Of a stretch of 44,399 nt of DNA, positions 10,028 to 42,907 are shown piece by piece (the stretch's first letter is position 1; every line of letters starts with the position of its first letter). Both the position numbers and the translations under genes were made by a program. The notes under the pieces are model-generated. The model saw only the letters and a program-made list of their open reading frames with translations, had not been told where the DNA came from and ran no database searches. Source of the stretch: Prevotella sp. (GTDB lineage: Bacteria > Bacteroidota > Bacteroidia > Bacteroidales > Bacteroidaceae); contig JAFVEE010000166.1 of NCBI GenBank assembly GCA_017478085.1, positions 1 through 44,399 on the forward strand, read 5' to 3'.

Positions 10028-10132
10028 CAATCGAGGCTTCGTTGATTTGGTATAAAGCCCTTATACCATTGTAATAGAGGCTTTATTCCATTGGTATAAG
10101 GGCTTTATTCCAGTCTAATGGAGCCTCGGTTG
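10028..10132. repeat. Phased palindrome array A (5 units, 22-bp period)
   Basis: Five short palindromes with centres at 10036, 10058, 10080, 10102 and 10124, exactly 22 bp apart. Central pentamers are AGGCT, AGCCC, AGGCT, GGGCT and AGCCT (all RGSCY). Arms: CAAtCGA/TCGTTG (one bulge), GGTATAA/TTATACC (perfect), AATAG/TTATT (one G-T pair), GGTATAA/TTATTCC (one mismatch), and AATGG/CGGTT (weak). Units 2 and 4 are also reverse complements of each other over 17 bp (10052-10068 and 10092-10108). The array fills the space between the flippase stop and the priA promoter and has no coding content. Confidence 0.9.
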
Positions 10133-26724: not shown

Positions 26725-26809
26725 CAGTACGGAGCCCTCGTACTGTTAGTACGGAGCCTCCGAACTATCAGTACGAGGGCTCCGTACAGATGCAATGGAG
26801 GCTCCGTTG
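26725..26809. repeat. Phased palindrome array B (4 units, 22-bp period)
   Basis: Four palindromes with centres at 26735, 26757, 26779 and 26801, exactly 22 bp apart. Central pentamers are AGCCC, AGCCT, GGGCT and AGGCT (RGSCY). Arms: CAGTACG/CGTACTG (perfect 7 bp), TAGTACGG/CCGAACTA (one mismatch), GTACG/CGTAC (perfect), and CAATGG/CCGTTG (one G-T pair). Units 1 and 3 are reverse complements over 18 bp. The array lies upstream of purL (minus) and upstream of the small-RNA and ompA promoters (plus), so it cannot be a simple 3' terminator. The rest of 26660-26930 shows no gene; an 85-codon open frame at 26611 is not protein-like. Confidence 0.9.
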
Positions 26810-32619: not shown

Positions 32620-33170
32620 CAAACCGTATAGACATACCGCTCGTCGGGGCTTACCACCGTGGTAAACTCCGACGAGCTGTCTTTTAGTACGTCCTTCAAG
32701 TTGTTGCGAATGCCCTCGCCCGTGAGCTTCAGCACGGCTTCCTTCATCGTCCAGAAACGCGTAAAGGCCACGTCGGGGCGGGCGGCATTCTGTATGCGCT
32801 CCATCTCCTCGTCGTTCATCGTATACCGGACCAGCGTGTCCTTATACTCGCGCACCGACTCCACATCGACCCCTATGGGCCTGTCGCTCAGCACGCATAC
32901 GGCGGCCTCGCGGCAGTGGCTCAGGTTGAAGTGAATCGCCGGGTGCCCCACGATGCTGGGCTTGCCGTGCTCGCCATACTCAAACAGCGGCTTCTCTTCG
33001 ATGCCATACTCCCGTTGAAGCCCTTCGCACAGCAGCAGATAGGCCGCCGCACAGGTGCGCCGCCCCAGCTCGTGGCGGAAGCGCAATGCCTGCTCCCGCC
33101 GTTGCTGCGACAGTTGCTGCAAGGCCTCGTCGAGGTCAAAGTCCCATATATGATCGTTCAAATAGAGCAT
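32607..33170 (-). CDS. 4'-phosphopantetheinyl transferase (Sfp-like)
   Basis: A 187-residue enzyme that moves the phosphopantetheine arm of CoA onto a carrier-protein serine. The superfamily signatures are intact: IGVDVES with Mg ligands Asp102 and Glu104, and FWTMKEAVLKLTGEG with Trp140, Lys143 and Glu144. It belongs to the Sfp/Gsp group rather than the short AcpS type. No polyketide or peptide synthetase is in the window, so the carrier is unknown and could be the fatty-acid ACP. The start at 33170 lies 10 bp after the -7 element; an ATG further upstream (33209) would precede the promoter and is rejected. Confidence 0.9.
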   Translation of the reverse strand: MLYLNDHIWDFDLDEALQQLSQQRREQALRFRHELGRRTCAAAYLLLCEGLQREYGIEEKPLFEYGEHGKPSIVGHPAIHFNLSHCREAAVCVLSDRPIGVDVESVREYKDTLVRYTMNDEEMERIQNAARPDVAFTRFWTMKEAVLKLTGEGIRNNLKDVLKDSSSEFTTVVSPDERYVYTVCHFL

Positions 33171-39210: not shown

Positions 39211-42200
39211 TTAGAACGTGAGTGTTACGCCACCCGAAATGGTGCGGATGGACGAATAGTAGGCATTGGTGGTGCTGCCGGTGATGCTCTGTCGGGGATC
39301 CATGCCCTGGCGCTTGCTCCAGGTCCACAGGTTGTCGCCCACGCAGTAGATGCGCAGCTTCTCGATGCCCACCTTGCGGGTAAGCGAGCGGGGCAGCGTG
39401 TAGCCGATGGTGACGTTCTGCAGCGTGAGGTACGAGGCGCTGGTGAGCCAGCGGTCGGAGCCCGAAGCCATATAGGTGTCGTTGTACTGCAGACGGGGCA
39501 CGTCGGTGTTGGGGTTCTCGGCCGTCCAGGCATTCTCCAGGTCGGCGTGCATAGCGCGGCCCGATGCGAAGCCCATCAGCGAGGCATACGAACCGTCGTA
39601 GACCTGGCCGCCCAGCTGGTACTGGAAGTCGAGCGAGAGGTCGAAGCCCTTCCACGCCACGCTGGTGCCGAAGCCACCATAGACGTCGGGCAGTACGTCG
39701 CCGCACAGGTAGTAGTCGGCATCGCCATACTGGTCGGTAGCTTCCTTGCCAGTGATCTTGCGGCGCTTCTCGCCCGAGTAGTTGTCGGGATCGTCGATGA
39801 CGTTCCAGTTCTTGTCATAGTAGACGGTGTGGGTCACCACGTTGCCGTCGTCATCCTTCACGGGGTTGCCGTTGGCATCGAGCGTGGGAGCCGTTTCGTA
39901 GGTGTTCTTCCAATAAGTGGCCTTACCCGTCTCGGGGTCAACGCCGGCGTAGCTCTTCGTATAATAGGTATAGCGCGACGAGCCTTCGCGGTAGAAGAAC
40001 GAACCGCTGGAGTAGCCATAGCTCTCGATGTTGTCGTACCAGGTCTTCTTGCGGGCTTCGGCCAGCTCGGTTATCTCGTTGTGGTTCGTAGTCAGGTTGG
40101 CGTAGATGTTCCAGGTGAAGTCCTTCTGGCGAATCACATCGGCGTGCAAGTCGATCTCGACACCGTTGTTCTTCATATTACCCACGTTGTCGTAGTAGCC
40201 AGAGAAGCCGAACGACTCAGGCAGCGGAGCCCACGACAGCATATCCTTGGTGATGTGGTTGTAGTACTCGATACCACCCCAGATGCGGTTGTTGAACAGC
40301 GAGAAGTCGATACCCACGTTGAACTTGGCGTTCTTCTCCCACGAAATGTCGTGGTTGCCCAGTGCCGAGGGCACGAGCGACACCGAGTTGTTGGAGTTGT
40401 TGATGCTGTAGTACGTGATGTACTGGTAGTTACCAATCAGGTCGTTGCCGTTCTCGCCGTAGGAGGCCTTCAGCTTCAGCTCGTTGATCCACTTCACGTC
40501 GCTCAGGAACTTCTCCTTGTTGATGAGCCAGCCGCCGCCCACGCTCCAGAACGTGCCCCAGCGGTTGTCCTTGGCAAAGCGCGAAGAAGCCTCGCGCATG
40601 ATGCTGCCCTGCAGGAAGTAGCGCTCGTCGTAGTTGTAGTGGGCACGGCCCAGCCACGACTCGGTGTTGTAGTCGGTCATGTACGACGAACCGCTACCGG
40701 GAATCACGGCACCTGCCAGCTCCTTGTTGAATACCGAGAACTGATTGGTCATATAGTAATCGAGCTCGTATTCGCGGGTGCGGTAGTACTCGTGGGCGGC
40801 CATGGCCTCAATGTTGTGCTGGCCGAACGAGTGGCGCCAGTTCAGTCGCTGCTGGTAGTTGTACGACCAGTCGCGCAGGTTCTCCTTCACCACCTGTCCC
40901 TTCGACGAGGCATACTGGCCGAAGAACGGGTTGGTGGTGTTGGTATAGCGGTACTCGTGCAGGTACACGTTGTTGATCGTGGTGAAGGTGAAGCCCCAGG
41001 GCAGCCTGATCTCAGCCTCGCCCGTGCCGTTGAAGGTGTTGCCCTCGCGCTGGCGGGTATCCAGCTGGTTCGACGACAGGGGGTTGGCCTGGTTCAGGTA
41101 GCCGCGCACCAAACCGTTGATCGAGCCGTCACCGTAGTCGTAGTTGTTGATGCGGGCATTCTCGTCGTAGCGGATGCTGCCGTCGGCATTGCGTATGTAG
41201 ACGGGGTAGATAGGAGCCAGCGAGGTCAGTGCGAAGGCGTTGCCGCTGGAGCCTGCCGAGCCGTCGTCGCCCAGGTAGTTGCGCTCGTAGTGGCCGTAGC
41301 TCATATTACCCGTCAGCTTCAGCCAGGGCTTAATCTGGTAGCTGGCCTTCAGTCGCGAGGTCAGGCGCTTGTAGTCAGAAGCCTCAGTGATACCGTCGTT
41401 GCTCAGGTAGTTCACCGAGCCGTAGAACGTCGACTTGTCGGTCGATGCCGTGGCCGAGAGCGTGTACTCCTGGCGCATGGCCGTCTTGTAGGTAGCATCC
41501 ACCCAGTCATCGGGCGTAATCAGGAAGTCCTCGCCTTTATAGGTAAAGGTGCGGCCCAGCGTGGCGTTGGGGTTCAGCTTGCCGTTCAGGCCAATGAGGG
41601 CCTGGCCCTCGGGCAGGGTGTAGACGTTGTAGCCCAGGTCGGTCGTAGTGCCGGTGTCAAACATGGCGGTGTTGGCCCACTGCCAGGCCTGCTCAGCTGT
41701 GTAGCCCAGAGCGTTCAGGGCGTAGTTGTTCAGACCGCGATAGTAGGTCTCGTAGTAGGCAGCGGGATCGTCTATCTTCTTATACTCGGGCGTGGCCTTC
41801 GAGTTCACGCCCCACTTGGCGTCGAGCGACACCACGGCGTTCTGGCCCTGCTTGCCGCTCTTGGTCGTAATCAGGATCACGCCGTTACCACCACGGGCAC
41901 CATACAGGGCCGTCGAGGCGGCGTCCTTCAGCACGGTCATCGACTCCACGTCGTTGGGGTTGATGTCGTTCAGCGAGCCGTCGTAGGGCGAGCCGTCGAG
42001 CACGATCAGCGGGTCGCTGTCGGCATTGATCGAGTTCACGCCACGGATGCGGATGGTAGGAGCGGCACCGGGCTGGCCCGTGGCCGTGTTGATCTGCACG
42101 CCGGCGGCCTTACCCTTCAGGGCGTCCACGGCGTTAGTCACCTGCACCTTGCCAATTTCCTCGGCACCCAGCACGGCAGCCGAGCCGGTGAAGGCGCTCT

Positions 42201-42801: not shown

Positions 42802-42907
42802 ACAACGGGGCCTCCGTTGTGGCATAACGGAGCCTCGGTTGCTGTGTAACGGAGCCTCCGTTGCAAACGAATGGAGGCCCCGTTGTCAGCTAACGGAGCC
42901 TCCATTG
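42802..42907. repeat. Phased palindrome array C (5 units, 22-bp period)
   Basis: Five palindromes with centres at 42811, 42833, 42855, 42877 and 42899, all exactly 22 bp apart. Central pentamers are GGCCT, AGCCT, AGCCT, AGGCC and AGCCT. Arms: ACAACGG/CCGTTGT (perfect 7 bp), AACGG/CGGTT (one mismatch), AACGG/CCGTT (perfect), AATGG/CCGTT (one G-T pair) and AACGG/CCATT (one mismatch). The 6-bp gaps between units are unrelated in sequence. The array lies between the stop of the 54-residue peptide gene and the susC promoter, both on the minus strand. No gene is present in 42705-42937. Confidence 0.92.

Follow-up and report, generated by a model that had tools for sequence, protein, structure and literature searches.

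The matS sites bound by MatP, and the sites of Noc and SlmA, are palindromes dispersed over the chromosome, and the dimeric proteins that bind them serve to organise or to protect the nucleoid; the matS palindrome is odd, and the sites in these systems are single and of one sequence. CRISPR loci are built of near-identical repeats of 24–48 bp with regular unique spacers. To our knowledge, the division of Bacteroidota chromosomes into domains is an open question, and no Hi-C study of Bacteroides was found in the open literature. REP sequences and BIMEs are numerous short intergenic palindromes arranged in arrays with inverted units, and the consulted sections of their descriptions give neither a 22-bp phase nor a fixed unit number (PMC2817692, PMC3733652). 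BrickBuilt of Porphyromonas gingivalis, a member of the Bacteroidales, is an intergenic element containing short tandem repeats, and is described as a MITE with terminal inverted repeats, a leader and a tail (PMC4596501).

The arrays described here resemble each of these systems in part, and seem, from their sequence, to be a set of protein landing sites not described before, in several gut and rumen Bacteroidales. Like matS and Noc sites they are dyads dispersed across the chromosome, but they form multi-unit, species-specific and quasi-regularly spaced arrays. They share repeated units and variable spacers with CRISPR loci, but the units are variable dyads of 15–17 bp, the spacers are 5–7 bp, the arrays are palindromic throughout and there are dozens per genome. 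Like REP sequences and BIMEs they are clustered intergenic palindromes, but with both a 22-bp phase and a preferred unit number. Ends of the BrickBuilt kind were not seen in the Prevotella genome, where arrays have little in common beyond their units; several arrays of genome G016 do have common flanks. The first-pass annotation of this locus knew of no named element of the kind in Bacteroidales, and this holds for the open literature (including PMC5771137, PMC4596501, PMC3733652 and PMC12306157, each in part; subscription papers and preprints lie outside its scope), in which no such element is described.

The window, a stretch of 44,399 nucleotides, is contig C28 of a Prevotella sp. genome (3.13 Mb, 77% complete); the nearest relatives of its purL-like protein, among the matches listed, are in Prevotella/Xylanibacter-type MAGs (86% protein identity). 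It contains three arrays, none assigned a strand. Array C (42804..42906) comprises five 15-bp odd palindromes at period 22 (42804–42818, 42826–42840, 42848–42862, 42870–42884 and 42892–42906), and its centres at 42811, 42833, 42855, 42877 and 42899 follow exactly the 22-bp steps first reported; the gaps, given then as 6 bp, are 7 bp between 15-mers and 5 bp between 17-mers. The units have 6, 6, 7, 5 and 6 paired positions out of a possible seven. A five-unit dyad statistic has its window maximum of 0.88 at 42811 and never exceeds 0.486 in 200 Markov-1 versions of the window, and the palindromes of array C are far beyond chance. Array A (10029..10131; five units, centres 10036–10124) starts 2 bp after a stop codon and 105 bp upstream of a priA-like gene, has TATAA/AATAG-type arms in three of its five units, and is predicted to fold with unit 1 paired to unit 5 and unit 2 to unit 4 (−61 kcal/mol, z −11.5). 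Array B (26728..26808; four units, centres 26735–26801) lies in a divergent gap upstream of the minus-strand purL-like gene; across 17 bp its unit 3 is the exact reverse complement of unit 1, and its predicted fold has z −9.3. The steps between arrays are 16.7 and 16.1 kb, and the RGSCY core reported for all 14 units (five in A, four in B, five in C) is indeed present in each. The window also has an Rfam match to FopS, a paralogous Bacteroidetes sRNA (RF04319; 26951–27019, plus strand, 76.7 bits), about 140 bp past array B in the upstream gap of the purL-like gene, a group II intron domain match (RF00029; 62–139, plus strand, 57.9 bits), and a 21-bp tandem direct repeat (935–1011; 3.7 copies, 96% matches) upstream of a predicted gene at 1184.

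The family extends well beyond these three arrays. A position model was run on 13 contigs of the same genome (720 kb), picked as long and with at least one hit, and identifies 38 arrays of at least two units, with none in the reversed sequence; two single-unit hits are excluded from this count. Five units is the preferred number (29 arrays), with three arrays of six, two of four, one of three and three of two, and RGSCY is present in 173 of the 180 units. A further 33 stretches, chosen by pattern hits, yield 32 arrays, 23 of them with five units. Extrapolated from the 13 contigs, the expected number is about 165 arrays per genome, although this may be high because the contigs were selected for hits. 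The phase is strict rather than scattered: all 43 GGAGSCTCC pairs found with 3–30 bp allowed between them have a gap of 13, which is period 22 (periods of 12–39 being permitted; control 0), and without any imposed phase 300 of 301 unit-to-unit distances of up to 120 bp are 22, 44, 66 or 88. Units scoring at least 14 are found 164 times inside arrays and three times outside. Weaker arrays of 3–4 units with GCAAAC/GTTTGC-type arms are present at C84 25724, C93 48577, C31 38031 and C116 49650, and possibly represent a second family.

In several other Bacteroidales the architecture recurs with a motif that differs by species. GGAGSCTCC pairs at period 22 are found in none of 59 relatives. Genome G004 (500 kb) has 62 arrays with motif RAAARRYSRYYTTTY, 47 of them with four units; on a 420-kb contig stretch period 22 gives 51 arrays, against no more than one at 16–21 or 23–29, and units may join unlike half-sites such as AATAT with CTTTT. 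The single-contig genome G141 (340 kb covered) has 11 blocks of exactly five CATCCAG-SSS-CTGGATG units, flanked in phase by TAAAAG..CTTTTA units, 4–6 on the left (11/11) and 4–5 on the right (10/11), with an exact 4+5+4 layout in four blocks by this model; the B model gives 17 hits, of which the 11 with an SSS core were kept and the other six lie between A units. The cores are CCC in units 1 and 2 of every block, and GGG-side in unit 4 (10/11) and unit 5 (9/11). In 100 kb each, G003 has eight arrays, five with five units (best control 2), and G016 has eight, six with six or seven units (controls 0). Bacteroides mediterraneensis has motif AAACGYAMKTRCGTTT with an even centre and six arrays, five with five units (controls 0); its genome contains 146 motif pairs (control 0), with a gap of 6 or 28 at all places among the matches listed.

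The B. mediterraneensis motif is common to one relative, G174 (one of 39 other genomes searched), and at one orthologous site both have arrays, of four and six units, between flanks that are 82–86% identical, the left flank in G174 lying some 5 kb further away. Spacers and cores do not match, so in this one case arms and phase are kept and the rest has changed more than the flanks. An automated scan upstream of priA in 29 relatives (best hit per locus) shows no array there; in two of these relatives, even-centred arrays with a 22-bp step lie roughly 1 kb away from the match. Upstream of purL, eight of 36 loci (from a set of 80) score at least 0.6 on a three-unit statistic, six of these at period 21–23, of which at least one (L063) is a plain direct repeat; the result is suggestive only. 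Among 80 named loci, 15 exceed a loose dyad threshold at period 21–23, the only periods scored, six of them at 21, and in a four-unit scan other periods are rarer. Samples of G009, G069 (partly masked), B. xylanisolvens and X. ruminicola have no convincing arrays, and second-motif discovery in G004, G016 and G003 gave diffuse models only, which were discarded. Viral contigs include five stretches with two units of the Prevotella core at period 22, with no array by the Prevotella model and none of the B. mediterraneensis pairs; no plasmid matches array C.

The internal anatomy of the units bears on how they are read. In Prevotella arrays of at least four units RGSCY fits 305 of 324 units, so the core is common and not invariant, and changes at ±2, 3 and 5 are mainly transitions, whether or not RGSCY is required for array extension. 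The arm compensation anticipated by the first-pass annotation holds at pair 7 (0/2000 shuffles, 324 units), stemming from minority arrays with GTAC, GTATAA or GTTCC-like arms, and fails at pairs 2, 3 and 5 (1019, 1977 and 1877 of 2000), with pairs 4, 6 and 8 between (146, 174 and 95). Arms vary among some arrays with palindromy retained, which is not what one strict reader protein would predict. The five-base spacers are varied (143 distinct among 208), and sequence information beyond the five units is close to sampling bias, exceeding it slightly beside the array (2.3 and 3.2 bits; bias 1.3). In G004 the orientation of units fits + − − +: units 1–2 and 3–4 are reverse-complementary (0/2000 permutations each), units 2–3 are alike in direct sense (1/2000 over the core, 90/2000 over 17 bp), and the remaining pairs show the same tendency over the core without significance; this pattern is mixed and less marked in the Prevotella genome. 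Such reverse-complementary units could stem from hairpin formation or from template switching. Template switching is able to perfect inverted repeats, and transitions dominate at the variable positions, so the arrays might be functionless by-products of replication slippage or template switching; we regard this as highly improbable, given spacers that differ while the 22-bp step does not, the preferred unit number, dozens of copies without control hits, and the even spacing described below.

Placement relative to genes was scored for the 35 Prevotella arrays of at least three units, using positions from a simple gene caller. None lies within a predicted gene, one overlapping a gene end by 25 bp; 12 are in convergent, 16 in tandem and 7 in divergent gaps, where the respective totals of gaps 130 bp or longer are 18, 86 and 58. 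Of 40 adjacent gene 3' ends, 36 are no more than 38 bp from an array, and 28 of 30 gene starts are at least 85 bp away and widely scattered. The close 3' ends are what a chain of RNA hairpins, the alternative first offered, or a terminator or 3' UTR element would give; the four predicted RNA folds (z −5.3 to −11.5) and the reverse-complementary units of G004 point the same way, and some between-unit pairing does exist. This reading is nonetheless disfavoured, and we think it quite unlikely. Intrinsic terminators have a hairpin with a T run and occupy gene ends only, whereas divergent gaps hold 7 of the 35 Prevotella arrays and 23 of 56 in G004 (none inside genes), and the T fraction past arrays shows only a modest excess (0.30 versus 0.21 across contigs). 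The most variable pairs, 2, 3 and 5, are uncompensated, half-sites can be unlike, and Rfam gives no match to the arrays at gathering threshold and two chance hits (E about 0.8); 22-bp phase and chromosomal spacing would be left unexplained. Avoidance of reading frames and promoters fits the placement better than termination does.

Tandem dyads upstream of genes, as in arrays A, B and C, could also be regulon operators bound by an ordinary transcription factor. The 12 of 35 arrays in convergent gaps, the remote and scattered gene starts and the even spacing all speak against operators, and none of 28 ortholog pairs flanks arrays in both the Prevotella genome and G004, a comparison of low power; we judge this alternative, too, quite unlikely.

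The arrays are quasi-regularly spaced in the two genomes measured, Prevotella and G004. In the former, 25 intervals range from 8,550 to 33,187 bp (mean 17.9 kb, CV 0.386), an evenness reached in 0/20,000 trials either by random placement (CV 0.83) or by random choice among intergenic gaps (CV 0.78); arrays of at least three units alone have CV 0.41 (1/20,000). A motif-free scan adds five phased arrays, all intergenic. Three are odd-centred and 15.6–16.9 kb distant from a main array, one of them halfway along the longest gap, and two are even-centred, one being 2.5 kb from an odd one; the CV becomes 0.34 with the odd-centred three and 0.39 with all five (0/20,000). A looser model adds seven arrays, with smallest distances to others of 105 bp and 4.5–7.8 kb, and raises the CV to 0.49 (1/20,000), or 0.52 with every off-motif array included (13/20,000), so arrays near the main ones weaken and do not abolish the evenness. 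In G004, with hits up to 400 bp apart merged, 39–47 intervals according to threshold have a mean of 8.3–10.1 kb and a CV of 0.36–0.49 versus 0.98 at random (0/20,000), the smallest being 839 bp or 4.1 kb by threshold. The 38 B. mediterraneensis intervals among the matches listed have CV 1.04 and a minimum of 8.1 kb, which counts against evenness there, although the exact-pattern list from which they come misses arrays. The longest array-free stretches were considered as mobile islands and this was rejected, the ten proteins inspected (C3, C116) being products of ordinary or unassigned chromosomal genes, including TonB receptors, SecA, ValRS and GH32.

Even spacing could also result from target immunity if the arrays were mobile repeats like REP sequences and BIMEs. 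They would then be hairpins that a transposase disperses and that persist in intergenic gaps, perhaps as gyrase-binding sites. Intergenic palindromes that are numerous and arrayed (38 in 720 kb, 0/35 in genes), array-level inverted repeats, and several G016 arrays with common flanks in either orientation are in keeping with this. The Prevotella arrays, however, have little or no common sequence outside the units, their unit consensus on inspection has no GTAG/CGTC foot, and their spacers are mostly distinct; phase is exact, a unit number is preferred and single units are nearly absent. The link to RAYT is not required either, since the Y1 transposase family PF01797 matches six of seven genomes (one match in Prevotella) and not array-bearing G003 (99% complete). 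Mobile repeats are therefore a rather unlikely explanation.

The reading we prefer, to which we give an even chance, is that the arrays are cis-acting pads for putative stacked protein dimers and act as spaced anchors organising the chromosome. Each array would be a landing pad for a putative dimeric DNA-binding protein, one dimer per dyad of about 15–17 bp, and a step of exactly 22 bp, or two helical turns, would let neighbouring dimers stack on one helix face. The preferred unit number would set the size of the patch: five in Prevotella, four in G004, and five flanked by a second kind in G141. Since the patches are intergenic, mostly away from promoters and quasi-regular, we propose that they are spaced anchors, as borders of loops or supercoil domains. 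The specificity of the protein would shift fast between species, with the arrays following. We infer protein binding, and its cooperativity in stacks of set size, from a phase of exactly two turns, from half-sites that change independently, and from the counted units and the spacing, and a structural role from the spacing and indifference to gene context; the role is probably nucleoid organisation. The original interpretation is thus supported in part: selection on phase and dyad symmetry, with stacked dimeric sites on one helix face, is well supported by the sequence, and the preferred unit number, even chromosomal spacing and change of motif between species under a fixed architecture go beyond it.

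More speculatively, and with doubts that outweigh our confidence, the arrays may be a chromosome ruler, a quasi-regular lattice (about 8–20 kb) of counted 22-bp multi-dimer anchors that sets loop or supercoil-domain size in many Bacteroidales, reader and arrays co-evolving fast in a centromere-like manner. With a DNA signal that is countable and evenly spaced, chromosome domain size would become directly testable, and motif change under constant architecture would be a rare bacterial case of possible co-evolution of DNA sites and protein, in a group dominant in gut and rumen.

Some variants and neighbouring repeat classes were also seen in the relatives. In the first 100 kb of G016 (L211–L215), arrays at 33113, 48961, 61152 and 70029 share both flanks, of which the left is TTTTGTAAAG..TTTTTAACA..AAATAGAAA-like, and those at 40081 and 96947 seem to bear the shared flanks in opposite orientation; these arrays are possibly parts of an element of some 450 bp. 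Bacteroides graminisolvens has two arrays at period 23; four GTAYACCCGGGTRTAC-like palindromes at this period (L086, 5578) are a clear variant in a type strain. G009 (L121–L125) contains many GTTGACA-type 7-bp repeats, a separate repeat class.
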